From a virus: 21,743 nucleotides of DNA. The stretch is from IMG/VR virus record IMGVR_UViG_3300032297_000402, positions 1 through 21,743 of that record; one strand, given 5' to 3'. The notes beneath the pieces were generated by a model. It saw only the letters and a program-made list of their open reading frames with translations, was not told where the DNA came from and made no database searches. Shown here in pieces: positions 8,215-21,658 of the stretch. How positions within the stretch are numbered: position 1 is the first letter of the stretch; every line of letters begins with the position of its first letter. The translations under genes and the position numbers were made by a program.

Positions 8215-8913
8215 ATGCCAGTAGGAAAAAGCAAGCTAACTAAAAGGGATTTCAATCAAATTTCTCTTTCACCGAAACAGAAAGAGTATTCTGATGCAAT
8301 CATCAATAACACAATAACATTTTGCTGGGGACCAGCAGGAAGTTCTAAAACATTCTCAGCTTGCTACACAGCTTTGCAATTACTTGCAAGAAACGAGGTC
8401 CAAAAGATCATTTTAACAAAACCGATTCAGGAGTCAGGAGAAAAGCTGGGAAGCTTGCCAGGAGACGTTTCTGAAAAGATCAGTCCTTTTATGGAGAGCT
8501 TCTTAATAACGATGGAAAAAATAATATCAAAAGAGAAGCTAGGACAATTGATCAACGACAAATCAATCGAGTTTAGACCCCTTGCTTATATGAGAGGAGC
8601 AACTTTCGATGATACAGTAATGATATTGGACGAGGCACAAAACTGTGACATGAAGCAAATAATGCTTTACACTACAAGGATGGGCAATGGATCAAAAGCT
8701 ATTATAGCGGGTGATGTTACCCAACATGATATTTCACACGAGAAAGTAGCTCTACCAATCTTCATAGATATTATGAAAGGAATCGAATCTATAGCCTCTG
8801 TCCAATTTGGTGAGGAGGACATAGTAAGATCTAAGATTCTTAAGGAAATTGTAAAAAGGTACGAGGCATGGAAATACCAAGACAAGCACACTTCCTCGAA
8901 TAAAAAGAATTAG
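8215..8913 (+). CDS. phoH: PhoH-like P-loop ATPase
   Basis: This 232-aa protein has the PhoH-family layout (PF02562). A Walker A loop GPAGSSKT is at residues 39-46. Walker B with the family signature ILDEAQN is at 137-143. A TTRMGNGSKAIIAGDVTQHD block covers 153-172. A C-terminal RSKILKEIVKRYE segment matches the usual family ending. PhoH-like proteins bind and hydrolyse ATP and are linked to RNA metabolism; they are frequent in large marine and freshwater phages, and their phage role is unsettled. The canonical glycine before the Walker A lysine (GPAGTGKT) is serine 44 here. It is the only plus-strand gene in the window, inserted within a leftward structural cluster. Its TAG stop (8911-8913) overlaps the TAA of the convergent 1213-aa gene (8910-8912 read on the minus strand). 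The leader CATTAAAAT has no Shine-Dalgarno sequence. Confidence 0.95.
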   Translation: MPVGKSKLTKRDFNQISLSPKQKEYSDAIINNTITFCWGPAGSSKTFSACYTALQLLARNEVQKIILTKPIQESGEKLGSLPGDVSEKISPFMESFLITMEKIISKEKLGQLINDKSIEFRPLAYMRGATFDDTVMILDEAQNCDMKQIMLYTTRMGNGSKAIIAGDVTQHDISHEKVALPIFIDIMKGIESIASVQFGEEDIVRSKILKEIVKRYEAWKYQDKHTSSNKKN

Positions 8914-11900
8914 TTTCCTGTAAAAGTTGCATCAGGGTTATCTGGGATAACTAATCCAGACCCGAATGGTTGTATGCTATTTATAAGGATCCTTTCCTGC
9001 TCATCAAGTAGTTCTACTGAGAGGTCAAGTAATTGACCATTACCGCTCATTATCGGTGGTTTGTACCCATAATCAGCAGAATTAACAAACTCTGGGTTTG
9101 GATCATTAGCTTTAGGTATAGACTGGTTAACGACTTTTATGAATGCGGGTTTAGATATCTCGTAAACGTTGCCTGCTGAATCCTCCACTGAGTTTTGTAT
9201 AGAAAAATAACCGCTTTGTGTGAATGTATAAATAAAATAAGGTACATTCTTCACGTCGAGCAGAATCTCATTCGTCGAAGCATTTTTTAAAACCCATCTA
9301 TTATTACTTTTCCCAAATATCTTAGAATCATAATTGCTCATGAAAACTGTGGAAAGCATAGGGACAAATAAATCAGAGCTTGAGTTATGAACATCAACCC
9401 ATGTCCAAGCACCAGATCCTGCCCTTGATATAACGTCTCCGAGATCAATTCCGGTTCCTGGTTTATAGCTTTCTAGGAAAGCAACAAAGCTTCCCGTTCC
9501 TCCAGCATAAGGTAAATATGAAGGTCCTGTAGATCCCGTATTAGATCCAGCTATGAAAACATCAAGATCCGGGTGTGAAACTAGCTTTAGCTGGGATTGA
9601 TCCCCAGTAAGTCCGGTAGTTGAGAAAGTAAGAAGCTGATCCACATACGTACCATATACGCTCCTTCTAACTATAGAATTAGCACTACCTGTTACACCTG
9701 GGGTTTCTGGGTAATGTATAGCTATATTATAGTATCCAGAGTTATCAGCATCGGTATTATCAGAAATAGAAGCCTCGTATGATCCTCCATAGTTATCATC
9801 AAGTAATTCGTACGAAGAAAGTATAGAAAATTGTCCACCTGGCTTTACAGAGAGAGTACCGAGATTAAGAGAACCTGAATCGCCAGCAAGAACCCCGTCT
9901 CCACTCTGGAATTTCTGAAGATAAGCATAACCAGTATAAAGGAAGTCAACGAAATATTGATCTTTGCTCTTGTATGATTTTATCGTGTTATACCAATTTT
10001 GATAATTCGAAGAAAGATCAGAATTTACTATAAAAGATCCAGTTATACCTTCATTATTATAACCGTTGACAGTAAAAAATGGCAGTGAGCTTCCAGTAGC
10101 TGGATGATATGGACTTAATCCTTGGTTATTAAAACTACCTTTGTACGTACCACTTAAAACGTAAGAATTAGAATCTTCCAAAGAGATTATATTATCGAGA
10201 GAACCGTTTGAAGTAGATCCAATAACAAAAGCAGTCTTTAGATCCAAATTAGAGTTCATATCTATAACTAAACCATTTGTAGCGTAATCACTCAAATATT
10301 GATTAGTGAAGATTGAATCGGGAGCATTAAACCAATCTCCGTCGTTTAAATATCCATTTTTTAATGTGGCTAGTCCTCCAGCTATATTTCCAGTTATTCT
10401 AACTGAGTTTTTAGAAACTGAAAGATCAGAGTTACCAAATGAGTTCGGTGAAGTAGCACCAGTGGCACCTGCAGGATCATATGTTGAACTGATAGCAGGG
10501 AAGTACCTGAAGTTTTTTAAACAAAATGATGACAATGGGTCGATTTGGGAAAAATCTATACCACCATAGCTGATTTGATTGCCTAAATCAAAGTCAACCT
10601 CCGCAATAAAATATGAAACAGTATCCTGTAATATAGACTGATCCGGCAGATATATCCCGCTGGTAGCACCAGTTGCTCCATTAAGAATCCAAGGGTAATC
10701 ATATGATGAAGTTAATCCAGGAGCTCCAATATTAGAGAAGCCAATAGGTCCTCCAATAGGTCCGGTTATTCCAGTTACGTTCATAGATCCAGAATTTGGA
10801 TATTCCGAAGACCATACAAATTTACCTGCTTCCATATATCTTGTGAATGATCCAAGGATAAACAATGAGCTATCGTCTAATGAAGGCTGTGCTTTTAGAA
10901 TTTTAGTTTCATAACCTCTGATTGGTATAGCTCCTTGTATCTGTCCACCATCAGAATAGAAGGCAACAAATCCGAAATTTTGTGCGGATCCAGTTGATCC
11001 TACTGGATTTGGATTAGTAAGTGTAAAATTAGTGCTCTGATTATTTTGTTCTCCTAGATCAAGAGATGCTGAAGAAGAATAACCAGTAACTACATTATAA
11101 TCTCTAAATCTAGATACAGACGTAACATCAAAATTAGTTGTATTATCCAGCCAAGAATATGGAGGTATAAGATTAGCCTCTTGCTGATCTTGCCATGGGA
11201 TAACTGTACCGTTATTCCAATAATCCTGGTCACCAGCTCTACCATCAGATATAGCTTTCAGGTCAGTTTCTAAAAATAGATTTCTTGTATCCATACCAGG
11301 ATGGAGATTACCGAGATATGATAAATCGCTACCTGTCCACGTTGGAAGAGTCCATGTGTATTTATTAGACTTGGGTAATCTAGCAGCATCTGTTGTTCCA
11401 CCCTCTGACGTTGGTGTGTAATAAACAAAATTCCAACCATTAGTACCTTCATATTTAGAGGTTGCATAAATGTGAGGAATTGTATAATCAAACAATACAA
11501 CATAATTACCTGCTACCAGCCAAAGGTCATTCTGAAGAACAGTTAAGCTACCCTTGATAACTTTTTCTTTAGCTAAGAGTATCGATATAACTCTATTATC
11601 AGGCAAGGAAGAATTTGAGGTGTCGTACAAAGTAAACGTATCACCATTGAAATGATAAAGACCGTCGGTAGTTACAGCAACATTTAATGGATTACCTGTT
11701 CTAAAAAACACATGTCCATTGTACCTCGAAACAACCTTAGTTACACCATACCCGTTACCAGCGCTCCAGGTATAGAATTTACTGTTATCCCAGTAAACAA
11801 TACCCTCAGAAGTACCAGCCCAGTAGTTTCCATTTTCATCAAATGATATCGAATATACACTATCAGATCCAATGCTGCTGTTACTGGAATTATATTTCTT

Positions 11901-12551
11901 CAAAACAGGGATAGCTAAGGTTCCGTCCTCAAGCTGAATCGTATCAAGGGTTCCTTGAGGAATAACCTGAAGACCATCGTCAGTACATAGATAATAATCG
12001 AAAGAATCACCACCTATACCTTTGGCTGTAATCTCATAAATATGAGGCCAGGTATACCCAGGAGAAACCTCTTTCCACGTGCTGCTCTCGGATTCATATC
12101 TCCATAAATATCCACCAGTTACGCCAACGTTACCACTAGCACCAGTTCCACCTCCTCCATTAAGGGGGGATATAAAAGCAAGAACCTCATTACCAAAAGG
12201 GGAAGCATATATGGTTGGAACCTCCCAGTTTGAACTAGCTTGAGAAAGAGCTCCAAACTCTGTTATATCCCAGCTAGATCCGGTTGCAGCGTTAATCTCT
12301 CCAGCATTAAATATTATAGTCTGGGAAAGTGAAGCAGTGACCGCACATCCTACCCATTTATAATCATTATTATCAACAGAAATTGATCTAGTATCAAGAA
12401 AATATGGATAGTTGGAGGGAACTACTGAATTAGTATAATCATAATATTCCCATGAAGATCCGTTATATTTAGTTAGATCCCTTCCAGCACACCAGACATT
12501 TCCTGATGAATCTAGATCTGCCTGATTTATAAAGTAGTTTGAATTTGCCAT
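8910..12551 (-). CDS. Large virion protein with propeller-type repeats and C-terminal PKD-like domain
   Basis: This protein has 1213 aa. Residues about 8-355 hold repeats resembling two-component-regulator propeller blades (Reg_prop, PF07494): ADLDSSGNVWCAG (11-23), ISVDNNDYKWVG (57-68), ISFDENGNYWAGTSEGIVYW (235-254) and TTDGLYHFNGDTFTLYD (294-310). Residues about 560-1030 contain spaced segments like beta-propeller SBBP repeats: SLFILGSFTRY (562-572), TAFVIGSTSNGS (773-784), SYVLSGTYKGSF (796-807) and DVFIAGSNTGSTG (997-1009). Residues 1086-1142 look PKD/Ig-like (YTFTQSGYFSIQNSVEDSAG). A short interrupted collagen-like tract starts near 594. There are eleven G-x-T-G motifs. No catalytic residues are evident. 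The architecture suits a peripheral baseplate or receptor-contact protein, which is inference. It starts 19 bp after the PKD protein gene and its stop overlaps the phoH stop. Confidence 0.88.
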   Translation of the reverse strand: MANSNYFINQADLDSSGNVWCAGRDLTKYNGSSWEYYDYTNSVVPSNYPYFLDTRSISVDNNDYKWVGCAVTASLSQTIIFNAGEINAATGSSWDITEFGALSQASSNWEVPTIYASPFGNEVLAFISPLNGGGGTGASGNVGVTGGYLWRYESESSTWKEVSPGYTWPHIYEITAKGIGGDSFDYYLCTDDGLQVIPQGTLDTIQLEDGTLAIPVLKKYNSSNSSIGSDSVYSISFDENGNYWAGTSEGIVYWDNSKFYTWSAGNGYGVTKVVSRYNGHVFFRTGNPLNVAVTTDGLYHFNGDTFTLYDTSNSSLPDNRVISILLAKEKVIKGSLTVLQNDLWLVAGNYVVLFDYTIPHIYATSKYEGTNGWNFVYYTPTSEGGTTDAARLPKSNKYTWTLPTWTGSDLSYLGNLHPGMDTRNLFLETDLKAISDGRAGDQDYWNNGTVIPWQDQQEANLIPPYSWLDNTTNFDVTSVSRFRDYNVVTGYSSSASLDLGEQNNQSTNFTLTNPNPVGSTGSAQNFGFVAFYSDGGQIQGAIPIRGYETKILKAQPSLDDSSLFILGSFTRYMEAGKFVWSSEYPNSGSMNVTGITGPIGGPIGFSNIGAPGLTSSYDYPWILNGATGATSGIYLPDQSILQDTVSYFIAEVDFDLGNQISYGGIDFSQIDPLSSFCLKNFRYFPAISSTYDPAGATGATSPNSFGNSDLSVSKNSVRITGNIAGGLATLKNGYLNDGDWFNAPDSIFTNQYLSDYATNGLVIDMNSNLDLKTAFVIGSTSNGSLDNIISLEDSNSYVLSGTYKGSFNNQGLSPYHPATGSSLPFFTVNGYNNEGITGSFIVNSDLSSNYQNWYNTIKSYKSKDQYFVDFLYTGYAYLQKFQSGDGVLAGDSGSLNLGTLSVKPGGQFSILSSYELLDDNYGGSYEASISDNTDADNSGYYNIAIHYPETPGVTGSANSIVRRSVYGTYVDQLLTFSTTGLTGDQSQLKLVSHPDLDVFIAGSNTGSTGPSYLPYAGGTGSFVAFLESYKPGTGIDLGDVISRAGSGAWTWVDVHNSSSDLFVPMLSTVFMSNYDSKIFGKSNNRWVLKNASTNEILLDVKNVPYFIYTFTQSGYFSIQNSVEDSAGNVYEISKPAFIKVVNQSIPKANDPNPEFVNSADYGYKPPIMSGNGQLLDLSVELLDEQERILINSIQPFGSGLVIPDNPDATFTGN

Positions 12552-12570: not shown

Positions 12571-14133
12571 TTAAAATATGCTCCCACCGTATTCCATTTC
12601 AGTACCGGTCGAAGAGTAAGTGGTTAATGTAAATGTTGTTACTATACCAGTACAGCTATATCCTAAATATGATGAATTTACACCAAAAGGCAAAACAGCA
12701 TATGAAGGGGGTAGCGTAGCGTTTAATGTTGACGTATTGTCAGTAATTACTATTGACGTAACAGCAGGAGATTTAGCTACTATTTGAAGCCCGTAATAAT
12801 CGGAGCTATTTCCAAACGGTCCTGAATAATCGCTATCTGCAAAAGCTTCTACGGATCCAGTGGATCCTAAAGAGGATATAATAGCATCATTTATTTGTGT
12901 AGCAATTCCATCATTAGGACCAGCGGTATCCTGCATAACATAGAATTCACCAGGACCTCCTGGTTCATTACCAACGCCACTATTGGCATTGAACGGTATT
13001 ATCATGTTGTACGGGGTTCCGCTTACAGTTATACCAATTCGAATTGTATAAACAAGTCCACTAGCACCGTGATTATTCATATAGGTTGGTGAGGGAACAA
13101 TAGGATTTGTTTTATTACCCGATGAATTCTCCTGGTAAAGAAATCCACTCATAGCACCTTGCAGAGAATTAACCTGTGGGTACCTACTAGCTATAATCTG
13201 AGCTAAAATATCAGGGGAAATCCCATATGTACTATAAATTCCAGTGAGATATCCATTATCAGCATAATATATTGATGTAGCATATCCAGGAATAATATAT
13301 TTTCCGTCATCAATCATAGGATCTCCCGATCCATAAAGAATTGAATCAACCACTATCTGACCAGATATGCTACCAACTCCATTACCCGTTATAAATTCAC
13401 CACCGAGTCCTGTACATGTAATTGTTGCTGATTCCTGGGTAGAATGAAAATAAGAATTCGTAGATCCGGCGTTTTCGTATATAATATAGGATCCGGGTAA
13501 TCCAAGATCAGAAGTTAGATAACCTGTGTTAGTAAAATTACCACTCTGTGAATAATTATCTAGATTCATCTGAATGACTTCCGAAGGACCGAGTTTTCTG
13601 ATTATAAAGTTCTGAGAATCAACGTCAGAAGCCAAAGCAGTCGATGCTTCAAGTTGTGCAGTTACTGTCAATTGATGTCCAGGAACATCAGAGTAAGCAG
13701 CACCTGGCAGTAATATCCAATCGTTATAAGATGCACCAGTAACACTCTGTGTAGTGTATACGGTTCCAGCTATATCCCATACCCACGTATCGGGATTTGA
13801 AGGAAGACCTGTCGAGGTATCAGTGAAATTAATCGCAGTCGACATTTTAATATCAGATGAGCTTTTAGTAAAAGAAGCTGTAACCTCTGCTGGTAGAACG
13901 GTAATAAAGCTGTTCTGAGTGAAGAAATTAGTAACGTTGTTTGAATCAGTTACTGTCAGAGTTGCAGAATAACTACCAGGATTAGTATAACTAACCAAAG
14001 CTGTAGCACCAGTTGAACCTGATATATCCCCGCCGTTAAAAGACCAAAGATAGTCATAGGGAAGTTGACCACCCGATGTTGTGCTGGTGAATAATATTGA
14101 TTGACTCTGATATATTGATATTGGATTTGCCAT
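12571..14133 (-). CDS. PKD-domain virion protein
   Basis: The protein has 520 aa. Two tandem PKD/Ig-like domains open it. The first spans about 10-80, with the hallmark YLWSFNGGD then SYTNPGSYSATLTVTDSNN. The second spans about 83-178, with VTASFTKSSSDI, INFTDTSTGL and DTWVWDIAG. PKD domains are beta-sandwich modules used for carbohydrate or protein contact and as spacers, and they occur in phage tail and capsid-surface proteins. Residues 180-520 are Gly/Ser/Asn/Tyr-rich beta sequence without a recognised family. Residues 360-460 contain a compact region (VYTIRIGITVSGTPYNMIIP and following). There is no signal peptide, so it is not secreted by Sec and is most likely assembled into the virion. 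It lies 10 bp after the 1355-aa gene and 19 bp before the 1213-aa gene. The leader CGAAAAAACT has no Shine-Dalgarno sequence. Confidence 0.88.
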   Translation of the reverse strand: MANPISIYQSQSILFTSTTSGGQLPYDYLWSFNGGDISGSTGATALVSYTNPGSYSATLTVTDSNNVTNFFTQNSFITVLPAEVTASFTKSSSDIKMSTAINFTDTSTGLPSNPDTWVWDIAGTVYTTQSVTGASYNDWILLPGAAYSDVPGHQLTVTAQLEASTALASDVDSQNFIIRKLGPSEVIQMNLDNYSQSGNFTNTGYLTSDLGLPGSYIIYENAGSTNSYFHSTQESATITCTGLGGEFITGNGVGSISGQIVVDSILYGSGDPMIDDGKYIIPGYATSIYYADNGYLTGIYSTYGISPDILAQIIASRYPQVNSLQGAMSGFLYQENSSGNKTNPIVPSPTYMNNHGASGLVYTIRIGITVSGTPYNMIIPFNANSGVGNEPGGPGEFYVMQDTAGPNDGIATQINDAIISSLGSTGSVEAFADSDYSGPFGNSSDYYGLQIVAKSPAVTSIVITDNTSTLNATLPPSYAVLPFGVNSSYLGYSCTGIVTTFTLTTYSSTGTEMEYGGSIF

Positions 14134-14143
14134 AGTTTTTTCG

Positions 14144-17100
14144 TTAAGGTCCAGTAGCTACAGTAAAAGAAACTACCAATGGAGGTGGTGCACCAGGAAC
14201 ACTGGTTGGTATTGAGTAACTACCACCAGTAGCTGCGGTTAGTGTAAAATTCAAATCAAGAGGAGCTGATGTAGTTAAAGAAGCTGTTGCAGTACTTGGT
14301 ATTACTCGGTAATAAAAATTAGTAATATGTGGATCGGTAGAGCTATTTAATTGAGATGCTGCATCGCCAAGTGTAATGTATGCTGAAGAACCAGTACCAC
14401 CTGATGAAGAAAAAGTAACACCAACTGGAAAAGGTACAGTTTCATTTCCTGTGCTAACTTTTATATTATCTCCAACTTTAGCAGTGTGAATTTCATAACC
14501 ACCAAGCCATCCGTTCTCGTAAGCAAAATCTTCCCATCCATGGGCATATGATTGATCCCACGTTGATTCGTCGAAAGTGTCCCATACCAGGTTCTTAGTT
14601 CCAAAATATTTCAAGGTGGAAACTGGAAATTCAGAATCTTGAGGGCTCCAAGAAACATATCCACTGGCACCGGTAACTCCGCCACTAAAACTAGGATTTT
14701 CAGAAACAAGCAATAGAGATCCTGTCAATGATACATTTAGGGTGCTACCGTTGCCAATGAATCCACTAGATGTATCTGATACAATATTTATTGTAGCAGG
14801 AATAGCATCAGGTTGCTCTGATTCTGCAAAATAATCGGGCTGCGTGTATACTGAATTTATTTCCTGTATTATCGAATTAACTGTTGATTGTAGATTAGAT
14901 CCAGAAGAAGTAGCTCCAATAACTCTACCGTCAACCGATACAGATATACTTCCACCCCCGGTAACAGTCTGAGAAGGATATGTTGAAGGAATTACATATA
15001 AACCAGTTCCACCTGCTATTGAAGAGGTTCCTGACGTTGCACCAACACCAGATTGCGGAACTATCACATAAGGTATCTGGAAAGAATATCCAGTCGCACC
15101 CGCAGGGATTATAACATCCCATGATTTATTAATAGGATCAATAGAGCCATTTATATAGATCATCGAGCCATCTTCAAATTGATGCGGTTGTGTTGTATGT
15201 ACATATGCATAGCTATATTGGCTACCCGATATAAGAACTGAATAAACTTTTGAGATGTCAAGTACATTCTGTGATAACGTAAAAGAAGCTGAAGCTCCAA
15301 CTGGATCAGTGTATGAATAAACCTGAAGGTTCTGTCCTTCTACCGCATTGTTACCATAGATTGCAAAATCTAAAATCTCAGCCGGAATTTTTCTCTGCTC
15401 TGGTCCAGTTGATCCGATAAGTTCATCATACGTTTTACCCTCTGCTGGGTACTCCCATATACTGTCATATTCGTCCCAGTCTCTTATTGTTTGATCCCAA
15501 ACATAAATTTCATTTTCTCTATATCTGGTCCAAGCATCTATTGTTATCTGTCGTGGTGAAACGTTAATAACGGACTTCCTGATCTTTCTGTTTTTGAAGT
15601 TAAACGCATCATATACGTTGCAGGTTACATTATATTCGCCTGTGTAAGGCAAGAAGTGCGCTAGCTTATAAAAGTCTATTATATAGCCTCTAAATGAAAA
15701 ATAATATCCAGATCCAGTCTGTGTCTGAGGCTTTTCTATTATCCACTCGATCTCATGATATTGTGAAAAATCTATACTTCCCCACGTCAAAGCAGCTTCC
15801 TGTGACGTGAAACTAGGAAGAAGTAAGGAATCCCAGCTCATACTCATTTCATCCCATGTCCATGGATCAACAAGAAATTCCAATATAACGGGCATACCTA
15901 TTGGATTCATGTACGGTTCACCTGTTGTTGGATCTACATAAGCTATAGGATCCTGTGTATTATCACCAAGATTTTCAATCAATCCATTCTCTTTAAGATA
16001 ATAGAATTCGGAGATTGCTTCAATTAGACTTTGATTTTGTTGAGATGTGTGTTGTTGATTGGAATCAAGCGGATCTACAATGTTACCAAGATCCGATATC
16101 GGAGAGTTCGTAATATTAATAGATCCATTTAAAACTGAAGTATTTACTGAAGAGTAATAGTAGATGGTTGATTGCTCTTGAGGATTAACAGATATGCTAA
16201 CAACACCGTCATCACCTCCATTACCTTCAACCCCTAACGGATCAACCTGATTAAGCGAAGGATCTGTGGTTAAATAGAAATCATATCCAGAAGTTTTAGG
16301 ATAGAAATAATATTTTTTACCAATCTCTAGATCCAAGGTGGGATTATCACCGCTCTCTAAAGAAAATCTGAAAACATCTCCAGAAGGACCTGCAACAGTA
16401 ACATCAACATCAACAGAATCATAATAGTTCATTGGTGCTTGAATAGAATACTGTAAAGGCCTTGTACCAAATGCTCTCAGATCCTCTATGAATCCAAAAT
16501 CGGGATTAGCTTTAAAATCAACATTATTACCAGAATCAAAATCACTCCTCTGTAAAACATCGGTCCATTCTTTAGTATTATAAACATTGAAATATACACC
16601 CTCCCCAGTTATATCAACAATCCTAGCATTTAATGGTAAATAAGTAAGTTTAAGTCTTTGCTTTAAAGCAAAAAGCTTAAGTAAAACCTCCTCCTGAGTA
16701 AAGGGGAAAGCCTCTAACGTAACAGGATAACCATAATCGTCCAGTTGGTTTGAAACTGTATTTATATCGTAATACAATCCAAATAGGGATGTCTTCTTGT
16801 AGGTTCTGCTAGGAACTAATGTATTCTCAGAGGAAACATTCAGAATATATTCACCCTGATCATTCGGACCATAAGTCTGTTCAAGTCTATATTTTCCAGA
16901 GTTTTCATTGTCAAGTACATCGGCTATTAATATAGTCTGATTTGGTGCTGGTGTATTGAGATAGTTATTCAGGAACATCTTATTCTCCTGTATAGGAGTA
17001 AGTGTAACATTACTATAATTTAAGTTTAACCAGTATTCCTTAATTCTTAAGTCCTGATACCCAAAGAATTTTAAAGCTCCAATTAGACCCTTGTAACTTC

Positions 17101-18211
17101 CTATGTAGGGGAATATCTCCTCCCCTGCTACCATTAGCTCCTTTCTTTTCTCGTTAATCTCGATATAGTTTGGAAAAGGTTCATTCGGATCATGCTCTCT
17201 TAATATTGTGGAATCTTCACCGAAGAAAGCCCTACCTAGGTTGTTGGTCAGTACATTTAGTCTTTCGTCCTCACCGATGACCTGTCCATAAAACATAACC
17301 TCTAATATCTTCTCAGGGGTACCTGAAGTAATATCTTCAATTATCAGCTTTCTCTCATATATCTCAGCTGCAACGTCTGGAGCATTTAATGCAACATTTA
17401 TGCTCATTGATTTAGACGGGGTAGACGTCTCAGGAGTAACTATATAGCCAGAAGAATAATAATCCGAAGGGTTGTCAATAACACTATAAGCTATATTTTG
17501 ATAGTTAATAATTGATGGCTCCCCTCCAATCTCAGGATCATTTTCTAGTATCTGGTAAGTGAATATTATATCCGTTACATCAACATTTCCATAGCTATCA
17601 TTTTCCCATCTAGTTCTCCAATATGGAGAATTCGAACTCCCAGTAGCACCAGTGTGAGGAAACCCTAAGAATTTGTCATTCGTTACAGAATCGATAAATT
17701 CCTGAACTATAAAGATCTGCTGATTCTCATAAAGTCCAGCTGAAACAAGATCGAAGTATACAGTTCCTTCGAAATAGCCTCCAGGAAGGTCAGTATAAAA
17801 GGTTTCACAATAGCACATGGTGCTATTGGATATTGCTATAGGACCAATTAATTTAGAGAAATTAATGGTTACTATAGATCCAGCAATAGATATGCTGGAT
17901 ATTTGTCCTTCCAATATGTTTGAAGGATAGAAAGACATCTTAAGACTGATCTTACCACCGCCATCTAGATTTTCATTTACAGAGTTCACCCACTGTGTTA
18001 TATCATAACCATTGATGTCCTGTACATTGAAATAAACTATATTAGAAGAAATGTCATATAGCGATACCTGACCTACTGCAGGTGAAGCTGATGATGAATT
18101 CGATTCGTAATTAAATTTGTTTGTTAGCGGTGCAGCACCGGTTGCACCAACATAATCGAAGTTAAGTGGTTGACCAGTTTTGTCAAAAAATCTTAATAAC
18201 CTGTTTGCCAT
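14144..18211 (-). CDS. Giant baseplate-associated protein in the T4 gp7 position
   Basis: This protein has 1355 aa. In T4 the gp6 gene is followed by gp7, the 1032-aa wedge backbone; here one small gene intervenes, so a gp7-like role is a positional guess. A conserved-looking block sits at about 315-395 (ERLNVLTNNLGRAFFGED, then PYIGSYKGLIGALKFFGYQD and KEYWLN). Helical sequence with basic residues follows at 505-530. A PKD/Ig-like segment is at about 845-885 (FLPYTGEYNVTCNVYDAFNF). Trp-Asp pairs spaced 7-8 residues apart recur at 786-793, 905-919 and 1210-1226. The last 350 residues are Gly/Ser/Thr-rich with several G-x-T-G motifs, like a fibre or shell surface. No enzyme motif is seen. The gene starts 2 bp after the 175-aa gene stop, implying coupled translation. 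The leader TTTTAAGC has no Shine-Dalgarno sequence. Confidence 0.87.
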   Translation of the reverse strand: MANRLLRFFDKTGQPLNFDYVGATGAAPLTNKFNYESNSSSASPAVGQVSLYDISSNIVYFNVQDINGYDITQWVNSVNENLDGGGKISLKMSFYPSNILEGQISSISIAGSIVTINFSKLIGPIAISNSTMCYCETFYTDLPGGYFEGTVYFDLVSAGLYENQQIFIVQEFIDSVTNDKFLGFPHTGATGSSNSPYWRTRWENDSYGNVDVTDIIFTYQILENDPEIGGEPSIINYQNIAYSVIDNPSDYYSSGYIVTPETSTPSKSMSINVALNAPDVAAEIYERKLIIEDITSGTPEKILEVMFYGQVIGEDERLNVLTNNLGRAFFGEDSTILREHDPNEPFPNYIEINEKRKELMVAGEEIFPYIGSYKGLIGALKFFGYQDLRIKEYWLNLNYSNVTLTPIQENKMFLNNYLNTPAPNQTILIADVLDNENSGKYRLEQTYGPNDQGEYILNVSSENTLVPSRTYKKTSLFGLYYDINTVSNQLDDYGYPVTLEAFPFTQEEVLLKLFALKQRLKLTYLPLNARIVDITGEGVYFNVYNTKEWTDVLQRSDFDSGNNVDFKANPDFGFIEDLRAFGTRPLQYSIQAPMNYYDSVDVDVTVAGPSGDVFRFSLESGDNPTLDLEIGKKYYFYPKTSGYDFYLTTDPSLNQVDPLGVEGNGGDDGVVSISVNPQEQSTIYYYSSVNTSVLNGSINITNSPISDLGNIVDPLDSNQQHTSQQNQSLIEAISEFYYLKENGLIENLGDNTQDPIAYVDPTTGEPYMNPIGMPVILEFLVDPWTWDEMSMSWDSLLLPSFTSQEAALTWGSIDFSQYHEIEWIIEKPQTQTGSGYYFSFRGYIIDFYKLAHFLPYTGEYNVTCNVYDAFNFKNRKIRKSVINVSPRQITIDAWTRYRENEIYVWDQTIRDWDEYDSIWEYPAEGKTYDELIGSTGPEQRKIPAEILDFAIYGNNAVEGQNLQVYSYTDPVGASASFTLSQNVLDISKVYSVLISGSQYSYAYVHTTQPHQFEDGSMIYINGSIDPINKSWDVIIPAGATGYSFQIPYVIVPQSGVGATSGTSSIAGGTGLYVIPSTYPSQTVTGGGSISVSVDGRVIGATSSGSNLQSTVNSIIQEINSVYTQPDYFAESEQPDAIPATINIVSDTSSGFIGNGSTLNVSLTGSLLLVSENPSFSGGVTGASGYVSWSPQDSEFPVSTLKYFGTKNLVWDTFDESTWDQSYAHGWEDFAYENGWLGGYEIHTAKVGDNIKVSTGNETVPFPVGVTFSSSGGTGSSAYITLGDAASQLNSSTDPHITNFYYRVIPSTATASLTTSAPLDLNFTLTAATGGSYSIPTSVPGAPPPLVVSFTVATGP

Positions 18212-18742: not shown

Positions 18743-20473
18743 TTATCTATTTTGAGCAATTATTTTTGCTTTAGCTTCTGCATTAAGTTCATTCAGGAAA
18801 TTCATAGGATTTATAGATGCAATCGATATGTTTAGAGCAGATGGTTTTCCTGCAACAATACCATCCTCATAATAAACACCATTCCTGTCTGTCCAACCAC
18901 CTCTCATAAGAATTAACTGACCTCTTCCTATAATAATATCACCAAAATCATCCAGACCAATTTGTCTGTTTAATTGTGAAGCGCTTGCGTTTGCTAGATT
19001 GTCAACTGCAGAATGATACTGCTCATTTTCTTGACCAACGAAGTAGAATGAAACTGAATCAACCCCCTGTATGCCTTCGACGAGGGCAATTATATCGGAT
19101 TTTGGTATTCTATCTCTTCTCTTCATATTTAGCATATATTCAGAAATTGACATTCTTACTTTATCCTTAATCACCTCAGGATCATAACCTTCAAAGATTG
19201 AAATTACAACGTTACCAACAAATCTTTTAATATCAGGCTCTATTATTTTAACAACCGTTGTTGCTACCATCTGACCTGAATCCTCTATTACATTGAGTAT
19301 ACTTAATTTTTGTGCAGATGTTAATAAAAAGCTAGTTTGAGGAATATCAAAATAATCCTGGTTAGATGTTATATTAAGGGTAACGTCGGGTACTAAAAAA
19401 ATGTAAACAACGTTATCGTCATCGATGTAATCATCATCAAAAGTAGAAAATGCCTGGATTTGTGAGAATATATTAAATTTCTGTAGGAATATCTCATAGT
19501 TTTCTGCATTAGCAAGAACATAAGATCTACTTGTTTTCGGTGCAACCAATCTAGTTAGTTCAACAGGTTCCGGGTCTGCTCCAAACGAAGGATCTATAGC
19601 TCCGATAATTTTTAGATAGTCATTCAGATTAACCTCATTACCAAAAAGATCCGTTCCAGAATCCAAGAATTTATAAGAAAGCTGTGAATCTTTTTTTGTC
19701 ATCACATTTCCTACAAATCCTGATGTTTGCAGATACTCGACTCTGATAATGCTTCCACTCTGAGGAACCTTACCGAAATTGGAATTGCCAAAGTAAATGT
19801 CGATACCCTCAGAGATTCCAGATTTTACTAAGTATCCTTCTGCTTCAAGAGGTATGTCATATAGAGATTCGTATTTTTTCCATCGGTTTCCGTTTACATA
19901 GACATTGACGTAAAACTGGTCTATGTAAGCTCCAGATTTAGATGGAACGTTAAAACTTTGTAGTGCAGCTCCGGTACCAGTAAAAGAAACATTACCGAAA
20001 GCTCCCTGAACTATTTTAAAGTTGAAGGTATTAGATCTGTTCAAAGGAATCTTTACAGAAGGAGAATTTATAACCAGAGTATATGGCAATCCGTTCTGTA
20101 AACATTGTATTCTAGGGTTTCCTGAAAGCATTACTGCTCCACCACCAGCATCAGACTCTCTTAGATTCCAGGCTACCGAAACCTCACCCTGAGCTGCCAT
20201 ACCTCTCATTGGGTCATAACCAGCAATTCTAGCTAAACTTCTTATCGAATAGCTCCTAGTAGCCTCCTGTATATTTAGCTCTGTAATAGAGTCTTCGATA
20301 AAATAAAGGATTAGCTGAGATATGTTCTCAAGTACAAATAGAATTTGTCCCCAAGCTGAAGCTACGGTAAATACGTTTCTAGACTGATTGTATGTTCTTT
20401 GCAAAAAATCATACGTGTCACCTAGAAGTCCTCTGATCAGGATGTTATTTTTCTTAAAAATGTTATTAGCCAT
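18743..20473 (-). CDS. Baseplate wedge protein, gp6 / baseplate J-like
   Basis: This 576-aa protein corresponds to T4 gp6 (660 aa), which forms the inner ring of the baseplate wedge. The N-terminal 90 residues are helical (WGQILFVLENISQLILYFIE; SIRSLARIAGYDPMRG), as in the family. The baseplate_J signature appears at about 224-256: IDIYFGNSNFGKVPQSGS followed by IRVEYLQTSGFVGN. A second typical block is at 442-478, with RRDRIPKSDIIALVEGIQGV and DSVSFYF, matching the gp6/J-like C-terminal domain that mediates ring contacts. An acidic loop (FDDDYIDDD) lies at 345-353. The gene starts 5 bp after the gp25-like gene stop, in the order also seen in many contractile-tail clusters (W/gp25 then J/gp6). 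The leader GTTAAAGATA has no Shine-Dalgarno sequence. Confidence 0.92.
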   Translation of the reverse strand: MANNIFKKNNILIRGLLGDTYDFLQRTYNQSRNVFTVASAWGQILFVLENISQLILYFIEDSITELNIQEATRSYSIRSLARIAGYDPMRGMAAQGEVSVAWNLRESDAGGGAVMLSGNPRIQCLQNGLPYTLVINSPSVKIPLNRSNTFNFKIVQGAFGNVSFTGTGAALQSFNVPSKSGAYIDQFYVNVYVNGNRWKKYESLYDIPLEAEGYLVKSGISEGIDIYFGNSNFGKVPQSGSIIRVEYLQTSGFVGNVMTKKDSQLSYKFLDSGTDLFGNEVNLNDYLKIIGAIDPSFGADPEPVELTRLVAPKTSRSYVLANAENYEIFLQKFNIFSQIQAFSTFDDDYIDDDNVVYIFLVPDVTLNITSNQDYFDIPQTSFLLTSAQKLSILNVIEDSGQMVATTVVKIIEPDIKRFVGNVVISIFEGYDPEVIKDKVRMSISEYMLNMKRRDRIPKSDIIALVEGIQGVDSVSFYFVGQENEQYHSAVDNLANASASQLNRQIGLDDFGDIIIGRGQLILMRGGWTDRNGVYYEDGIVAGKPSALNISIASINPMNFLNELNAEAKAKIIAQNR

Positions 20474-20478
20474 TATCT

Positions 20479-20850
20479 TTAACTTACTTTCAAAGTAACC
20501 AAGGGACTTTCATTTCCATTTTGTGGAATATAAAAATCTATAAGAGCAATATCTCTCTCAGTTCCCTGATAAAATTTTAAATTAAAATACCCGCCAAGCT
20601 GTGCAAATAGAGGAACATAAGTTGTTAGACCGAGATTAATCTCGTCTCTTATTGTTTTCTCAGACAGATCAAGGCTAAAAACTAAATCCTCAAGATTCAA
20701 TCCAAATTTAGGATCGCCCAACACCTCTCCTTTGTTCGTAAGGAGTAGCATTTTCAATTGACCTACACAGATTTCTACAGGCTGTGTAATCTCGATAATG
20801 CCCTGTTTGTAATACGGGTCTGCTGGATCTCTGTTATAAATCTCTACCAT
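20479..20850 (-). CDS. Baseplate wedge protein, gp25 / GPW-like
   Basis: This 123-aa protein fits the GPW_gp25 family (PF04965; T4 gp25 is 132 aa). The signature is at residues 35-58: LLLTNKGEVLGDPKFGLNLE followed by DLVF, matching the family pattern of T-x(2)-GE, then P-x-(Y/F)-G, then L-x(3)-(L/V)-F. Gp25-like proteins sit at the inner baseplate next to sheath and gp6-type proteins and form part of the core bundle that starts sheath assembly. The C-terminal half is amphipathic and ends in beta strands (ALIDFYIPQNG). No upstream in-frame ATG, GTG or TTG exists in the 31-bp leader, which fixes the start. That leader is the longest in this part of the operon and contains a hairpin reaching into the start codon. 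Confidence 0.93.
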   Translation of the reverse strand: MVEIYNRDPADPYYKQGIIEITQPVEICVGQLKMLLLTNKGEVLGDPKFGLNLEDLVFSLDLSEKTIRDEINLGLTTYVPLFAQLGGYFNLKFYQGTERDIALIDFYIPQNGNESPLVTLKVS

Positions 20851-20881: not shown

Positions 20882-21658
20882 TTAATTCCACTGTAAGAAA
20901 TAAGATGGAGTGTTCTCTCCGTTGATCATATCCATTACCTCTTGAAGCTCTTTTTCACCATCTGATCTTAGTTCAGCAGTGTTTACAGTGACCCCTCCAG
21001 GAAGGTTATAATTGAATGCGCTAAGAACCCTAGATAAAGAAATTTTGGCTTTAGCAAGACAGTATCTAATGAAAAGTTCATCGTCATATAATGCATCATC
21101 ATCTATAGCTACGAAGCATCTTACAGCAACATCCATTCCATTTTGATCATATCCTGTTCCAACTCCTCCACTGCCTGATCTATTTGGATCTCTACCAAGT
21201 ATGGTTAATTTCTTAGTGTTCTTGTTCCATTTGTAAGCATATGTAGGTAACAGATAAGCCTGAGCTAAATCGAAGTAAGAGTACATTACTGTTCTATAGA
21301 CAAGGTTGTCACCCGTGAAAGGAGATAGAAGAAGCTCAGATCCTAATAATTTAGAATCTCCAAAATCTCGATCGGGGTTTCCTGATATACCCATACCATT
21401 AACTTCTCTAACGTCATAAACAGTAACAATCTTGTCTGGTAATTGAATCTGTCTGGTTTTTCTAAAACTAGGGTGAGCAAACATATTGTTAGCTAGAATG
21501 AAAACCCTATCCTCCACAGCATACTGATAATTATCATACATCCAAGCTTTTGCTCTTCTGATGATCCTGTCAATTTCTTGATCGTTAAGATTATACGGTA
21601 AAGAACAACTTGCTGAAATGTCGTCTTTGATCTCCTGTACTAATTCTTCTAGAGTCAT
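20882..21658 (-). CDS. Putative neck / tail-completion structural protein
   Basis: This 258-aa protein is probably soluble, with no signal peptide or membrane segment. The N-terminal 60 residues are helical (MTLEELVQEIKDDIS; DQEIDRIIRRAKAWMYDNYQ). A beta-rich middle follows (VYDVREVNGMGISG). A C-terminal helix-turn-helix block at about 193-243 contains FIRYCLAKAKISLSRVLSAF and the distinctive NLPGGVTVNTAELRSDGEKE. Blocks of this kind (helix, PGG, then acidic helix) are, to my recollection, common in conserved structural proteins of large phages close to neck and baseplate genes, but I cannot check this by search. Location directly upstream of the gp25- and gp6-like wedge genes supports a neck, tail-terminator or baseplate-hub role. 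It starts 1 bp after the upstream gene's stop and ends 31 bp before the gp25-like start. Confidence 0.87.
   Translation of the reverse strand: MTLEELVQEIKDDISASCSLPYNLNDQEIDRIIRRAKAWMYDNYQYAVEDRVFILANNMFAHPSFRKTRQIQLPDKIVTVYDVREVNGMGISGNPDRDFGDSKLLGSELLLSPFTGDNLVYRTVMYSYFDLAQAYLLPTYAYKWNKNTKKLTILGRDPNRSGSGGVGTGYDQNGMDVAVRCFVAIDDDALYDDELFIRYCLAKAKISLSRVLSAFNYNLPGGVTVNTAELRSDGEKELQEVMDMINGENTPSYFLQWN

Follow-up and report, generated by a model that had tools for sequence, protein, structure and literature searches.

A conserved twin-propeller protein encoded in the baseplate gene cluster of huge phages is a candidate host-surface-binding protein

Our computational analysis of a window of 21,743 bases from the IMG/VR virus record IMGVR_UViG_3300032297_000402 draws attention to a gene, here called PROP, whose 1213-aa product is predicted to combine two propellers with a PKD-like C-terminal domain and is conserved in 78 viral-contig loci. 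On balance we favour the view that PROP is a baseplate-anchored protein of huge Bacteroidota phages that binds the host surface, docked through its C-terminus and with its propellers directed outward, and it is in our view a good candidate for the component with which the phage takes hold of its host. The gene occupies positions 8910..12551 and is read on the minus strand, from 12551 to 8910; a preliminary description made from the sequence alone had given these coordinates and this length correctly, and the ORF is genuine. All features within PROP mentioned below are likewise on the minus strand.

The genomic context is that of a tail baseplate. Upstream of PROP, all on the minus strand, lie a 520-aa neighbour with an N-terminal PKD domain (12571..14133; PKD_4 over the cut-off, recognisable in 39 of the 78 loci), the 1355-aa baseplate-region protein g1355, which is phrog_28177-like (14144..18211), the 181-aa protein g181, a gp6-like baseplate wedge (18743..20473; phrog_219, 2.3e-31), a gp25-like baseplate wedge (20479..20850) and a head-tail adaptor-like protein (20882..21658; phrog_211, 4e-10). 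On the other side, beyond a PhoH-like gene, four further minus-strand genes (g4 to g1) are conserved in related phages. The cluster order gp25-gp6-g181-g1355-PROP-g4-g3-g2-g1 is identical across the 78 loci, with g1355 upstream of PROP in 72 and g4-g3-g2 downstream in 76, the remainder being cut by contig ends. PROP thus lies within a tail and baseplate cluster, which is one of the marks of a phage receptor-binding protein, and its gp25-like, gp6-like, adaptor-like and phrog_28177-like neighbours agree with the phage tail assignment of the preliminary description. By gene order, g1355 might be likened to gp7 of phage T4; when the phrog_28177-like proteins (alignment A5, 13 hand-chosen rows) were compared as a profile with the PDB, nothing useful came back. 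The PhoH-like gene (8215..8913, plus strand; PF02562, 6.5e-61), whose 3′ end shares four bases with the end of PROP, separates PROP from g4 in most loci, where it is antisense to both, and is on the same strand in L072-L074; among the 78 loci in which gene order was read it was not found at L059, L071, L078 and L079, and it is perhaps a passenger gene, gained and lost at this position.

Propeller 1 (residues 8-356; 11484..12530) has seven four-stranded blades and, judging by profile comparison, is homologous to the Reg_prop propellers of Bacteroidota, namely those of hybrid two-component sensors (HTCS) and PorZ. AlphaFold was run on two overlapping halves of PROP, residues 1-480 and 355-1213. 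The model of the first half has a mean pLDDT of 79.9, mostly 85-95 over residues 8-356 except in the loop 134-142, and the two models together contain two seven-bladed propellers, in keeping with the closed propellers that the preliminary description had proposed to look for. One blade (residues 227-248; 11808..11873) carries the diagnostic Reg_prop motif. The full motif put forward in that description occurs once, at residues 235-254, a count matched by 0 of 20,000 shuffles of residues 1-360, and the relaxed motif D..[GND]..W.(.)G occurs three times (residues 14, 60 and 238), a number reached by 0 of 20,000 shuffles; the claimed pattern of N-terminal blades therefore holds for one perfect and two recognisable blades, but the others are visible only in the model. 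Since the window PROP scores 18.2 bits against Pfam Reg_prop (PF07494, E 0.0026), below the cut-off of 20.4, we call it Reg_prop-like and not a formal member of the family. Among 16 related whole records, Reg_prop was over the cut-off in 12, every time in a PROP-sized ORF and in no other protein, and below it in three (G014, together with G011 and LR756500, where the ORFs are of other size); one record gave no match at E <= 0.1. All 20 members of alignment A1 (20 of 29 proteins after a 95% identity filter) matched at E <= 1, the best at 4.7e-5. The contig of L033 (G011:C1:5796-6617) has two weak Reg_prop matches of 12-13 bits in a different, 1086-aa ORF.

The kinship is carried by the sequence profile. 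When a profile of the N-terminal half of 50 orthologs was compared with all PDB sequences at E <= 0.1, only five distinct ones were found, all of them HTCS-type ectodomains or PorZ (4a2l, BT4663, 3e-28; 3v9f, BT3049, 5.6e-25; PorZ, 2e-6); the A1 profile again found only HTCS ectodomains and PorZ, with several blades of each HTCS target aligned. These results substantiate the earlier link between the N-terminal blades and HTCS propellers. By fold, the top Foldseek matches of propeller 1 in the PDB were BT4663, BT4673 and PorZ, and after realignment the second propeller of PorZ came first (Z 24.0, 299 residues, 18% identity), tied with unrelated seven-bladed propellers at Z 23-24, which is why the fold score is not taken as evidence of kinship. 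These ties, together with the score of the window PROP below the Pfam cut-off and its single perfect motif blade, are what would be expected if the resemblance to Reg_prop were the convergence of a generic seven-bladed propeller and not a capture from the host; we consider this most improbable, as the PDB profile singles out HTCS ectodomains and PorZ over several blades and all five confirmed cellular relatives of the diagnostic blade belong to Bacteroidota (blade-only genome scan, 5 of 107 stretches confirmed). A scan with the whole N-terminal half, covering one genome each for 84,980 species, gave 60 stretches, none of which was confirmed as a relative, and orthologs can be as low as ~32% identical to the window PROP in their best segment, so the capture of propeller 1 does not look recent. 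The domain capture from the host suggested in the preliminary description is thus consistent with the Bacteroidota origin of the blade relatives, but it does not look like a recent event.

Propeller 1 is followed by a linker (residues 357-466; 11154..11483), well conserved up to about residue 446 and modelled mostly with low confidence, and then by propeller 2 (residues 467-1026; 9474..11153), also of seven blades and the most variable part of the protein. The regions 1-360 and 550-1035 singled out earlier were close to these limits, but the second propeller begins earlier, at about residue 467. In the model of residues 355-1213 (mean pLDDT 77.4), blade 1 of propeller 2 seems to be completed by strand 1020-1026, the final one of the propeller. 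The best fold match is CylK (7fh6; Z 27.6, rmsd 3.2, 382 residues, 11% identity), and the seven-bladed designer propeller 7big aligns with Z 24.1. The resemblance of this region to SBBP repeats, and with it the SBBP part of the profile check proposed alongside PF07494, found no counterpart in Pfam, at E <= 10 for the window PROP or at E <= 1 in 20 orthologs; the PF07494 part of that check, as described above, gave a match below the cut-off in the window copy and over it in 12 of 16 records. Among phage and giant-virus proteins, a viral fold library offered numerous propellers, of which none bore a name that clearly marked it as Reg_prop. The likeness of propeller 2 to CylK and, weakly, to sialidases, and the use of propellers by phage endosialidases (PMC4901313), would suit a depolymerase that trims capsule or LPS. 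We hold such an enzyme to be very unlikely and disfavour this reading of propeller 2, because the window PROP matches no enzyme family in Pfam, PHROGs or NCBIfam, the C-terminal half has no PDB sequence match at E <= 5, and propeller 2 is the most variable part of the protein.

The PKD-like domain (residues 1027-1145; 9117..9473), which we propose as the anchor, is followed by a tail with a helix in the AlphaFold model (residues 1146-1213; 8913..9116). The domain is modelled as all-beta with moderate confidence (10-residue pLDDT means ~39-86). Pfam PKD has no match in the window PROP, matches 8 of 20 orthologs at E <= 1 (best 0.0053) and scores 19.9 bits in L045, where the cut-off is 23.5; for these reasons we call the domain PKD-like only, the term that the preliminary description had used. 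The phage LR756500, the top match for four neighbours of PROP in the window, has a cluster composed of gp25, gp6, g998, g205, g700 and g1231 in which PROP was not found; g998, next after gp6, is the counterpart of g1355 and ends in a domain that resembles the C-terminus of PROP. A C-terminal profile searched in eight whole related phage records matched two, LR756500 (1.8e-6) and MaF61 (3.9e-8), each time in the phrog_28177-like gene, and had no match in the other six; the pT24 protein, scored directly, gave a weak 7.6 bits. In the reverse direction, a profile of the terminal domains of these three proteins (LR756500, MaF61 and pT24) compared with the 43 ORFs of the window ranked PROP first (1.8e-11), followed at a distance by g1355 (0.023) and the PKD protein (0.34), and g1355 of the window itself lacks that terminal domain. 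This homology, though reciprocal, extends over ~70-100 residues at 20-35 bits, a limit that matters since PKD-like domains are short and common. When viral contigs were searched for C-terminal domains that stand alone, 80 loci came up, and of the nine contigs that were new, seven had the full PROP architecture and two were cut by contig ends.

In a gp6 tree, from which Lak-C1 was left out because its gp6 extract was too short, the rows that bear PROP form one clade (100/100), with LR756500, MaF61 and pT24 outside it, the placing of these sister phages being unsure because their branches are long. The last domain of PROP was apparently taken from the neighbouring baseplate protein, and the simplest reading of the comparison is that the domain once ended an ancestral baseplate-region protein and may then have moved to the end of PROP. 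Such a move suggests that PROP may dock where the domain did.

PROP carries large additions in some lineages. A loop of blade 2 (residues 72-78; 12318..12338) is the site, at about residue 75, of a whole DUF5122 propeller in L078 (2.1e-71) and L198 (8.9e-77), and a loop of blade 3 that is rich in Gly and in part modelled with low confidence (residues 130-146; 12114..12164) receives in L136, at residue 133, an insert of ~314 aa with a weak YCF48/BNR match; the sites in L078 and L136 were not taken from hmmalign, which misplaced both at the N-terminus. The loops that join the second and third strands of propeller blades lie on a common face. Since both insert loops join strands 2 and 3, they share one face of propeller 1. 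In propeller 2, the loop 616-644 (10620..10706) is enlarged in most of the distant clade, and the region 946-983 (9603..9716) bears inserts in L026, where it is Lcl_C-like and lectin-like (9.2e-7, below Pfam's cut-off), and in L016-L018 and L083, the inserts of L017 and L083 matching no family. N-terminal extensions with Thr/Pro-rich repeats occur in five orthologs (L011, L012, L015, L022 and L025); in L011, L022 and L025, long Thr/Pro-rich repeat linkers connect variable N-terminal stretches to propeller 1. Divergence is also uneven: over 24 close pairs, picked greedily from 100, from lineages that are not independent and with one pair (L036-L039) of cut proteins, mismatch per site was 0.205 in propeller 2, almost double that of propeller 1 (0.113) or the C-terminal domain (0.099). 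The alignments A2-A4 exclude L033, L036 and L039, which are cut by contig ends, and A2 also excludes L078 because of its insert; A4 comprises 40 of 51 rows and A6 27 of 50.

The high conservation of propeller 1, part of the linker and the C-terminal domain is open to another reading, in which PROP sits inside the baseplate or tail as a hub, with propellers that scaffold fibres or wedges, and another protein binds the receptor. A conserved propeller 1 would be unusual for a fast-evolving receptor-binding tip and weakens the adhesin role, and the nozzle of phage SU10, whose core is a seven-bladed propeller that accommodates extra domains between blades 2 and 3 (PMC9509320), is somewhat like PROP with its blade 2 and blade 3 inserts. 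Yet the LR756500 cluster without PROP indicates that the protein is not needed for a baseplate, and foreign-propeller and lectin-like inserts and the high divergence of propeller 2 suggest an exposed surface, so that we rate a hub as possible but rather unlikely. The host-binding role is favoured by the gene context, the lineage-specific presence of PROP, its modular additions, the variability of propeller 2 and the kinds of ligand that its relatives bind.

PROP was found in the 78 loci by two scans, on contigs of up to 434 kb; tblastn of INPHARED with the window PROP and the L041 and L027 orthologs gave no match, and PROP is missing from all named phages that the searches covered. Named-phage relatives of three of its neighbours include Lak phages of Prevotella, phages of Tenacibaculum, Chryseobacterium and Flavobacterium, unassigned huge phages and phage PAU. 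Because nearly all of these relatives come from phages of Bacteroidota or from huge phages without an assignment, and because T9SS sorting domains are present in 7 of 22 related phage records, the hosts are likely to be Bacteroidota; PAU, whose recorded host is Sphingomonas, not a Bacteroidota, counts against this. The T9SS domains (PF18962) are over the cut-off in loci that include L158, L159, L160, L161, L162 and L163, and three of the seven records have similar small clusters of secreted-looking proteins. The 636-kb phage LR756504.1 encodes, at L157:4065-5606 on the minus strand, a protein of ~512 aa with Reg_prop over the cut-off (26.0 bits), a C-terminal T9SS sorting domain (TIGR04183, 26.1 bits, cut-off 23) and a start that by eye looks like a signal peptide; this secreted-looking protein is apparently a phage-encoded T9SS cargo with a host-type propeller. 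As such cargo has been reported for Cryophage (PMC7468147), these records would extend it to huge phages.

How, then, might PROP act? We infer that it is part of the virion, a structural protein of the tail baseplate in huge phages infecting Bacteroidota, held there by the PKD-like domain that in sister phages ends the phrog_28177-like protein, and that both propellers face outward. Propeller 1 probably has an ancient origin in the Reg_prop propellers with which Bacteroidota equip their own surface. Together with propeller 2, which changes faster, it would bind a glycan or some other part of the host envelope and thereby bring the tail into place for infection. Lineages may furnish exposed loops or the N-terminus with further adhesive modules, be they whole additional propellers, a lectin-like domain or Thr/Pro-rich extensions. 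It can further be imagined, though we find it doubtful, that the phages captured a PorZ- or HTCS-type propeller, grafted it onto the terminal domain of the adjacent baseplate protein and so bind the same class of surface glycan (of LPS or O-antigen type) as the host propellers, the scaffold then nesting further propellers and lectins. To our knowledge, host recognition by huge Bacteroidota phages is poorly known. PROP offers a conserved and testable candidate in 78 loci, its domains, variable regions and hot spots of insertion now mapped out, and suggests a route to a new phage adhesin, in which the terminal domain of a baseplate protein is shifted onto a host-type propeller. Propellers in phage host-recognition proteins are already known; in open-access full text we found no paper on a phage propeller of Reg_prop type, which is no proof of its being unpublished, and as far as our searches go no twin propeller of Reg_prop type that has borrowed a baseplate domain has been described. 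New here is the homology between the C-terminus of PROP and the domain that ends the post-gp6 protein in LR756500 and MaF61.

The closest known systems include PorZ of Porphyromonas gingivalis (5m11), a surface component of the T9SS in which two seven-bladed propellers precede a C-terminal beta-sandwich (PMC5121618). PROP shares this order of two seven-bladed propellers and a C-terminal all-beta domain, as judged from halves modelled separately and a last domain of moderate confidence. Unlike PorZ, it has no T9SS sorting domain (no PF18962 or TIGR04183 match); its C-terminal half has no sequence match to PorZ, and its last domain is instead like the one that a phage baseplate-region protein carries. 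The HTCS ectodomains BT4663 (4a2l), BT3049 (3v9f) and BT4673 (3ott) have a Reg_prop propeller homologous to propeller 1, but PROP lacks the Y_Y_Y, histidine kinase and response-regulator domains of the hybrid sensors (Pfam, E <= 10). BT4663 binds disaccharides at the entry faces of its propellers (PMC5121618), and a reported role of PorZ is the delivery of anionic LPS (PMC8545088). CylK (7fh6), matched by propeller 2 in fold at 11% identity and without a profile match, is an enzyme. Nozzles of the SU10/T7 type, likened to PROP by description, have a seven-bladed core with domains inserted between blades, but differ in their structural role and in belonging to short-tailed phages (PMC9509320). 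Likewise by description, PROP resembles other propellers of phage host-recognition and baseplate proteins, namely the phi11 RBP, with a cavity that could hold GlcNAc, PRD1 P2, and phiKZ gp131C, which is seven-bladed and lies at the baseplate periphery; the part of PMC4901313 available describes no Reg_prop kinship for these three.
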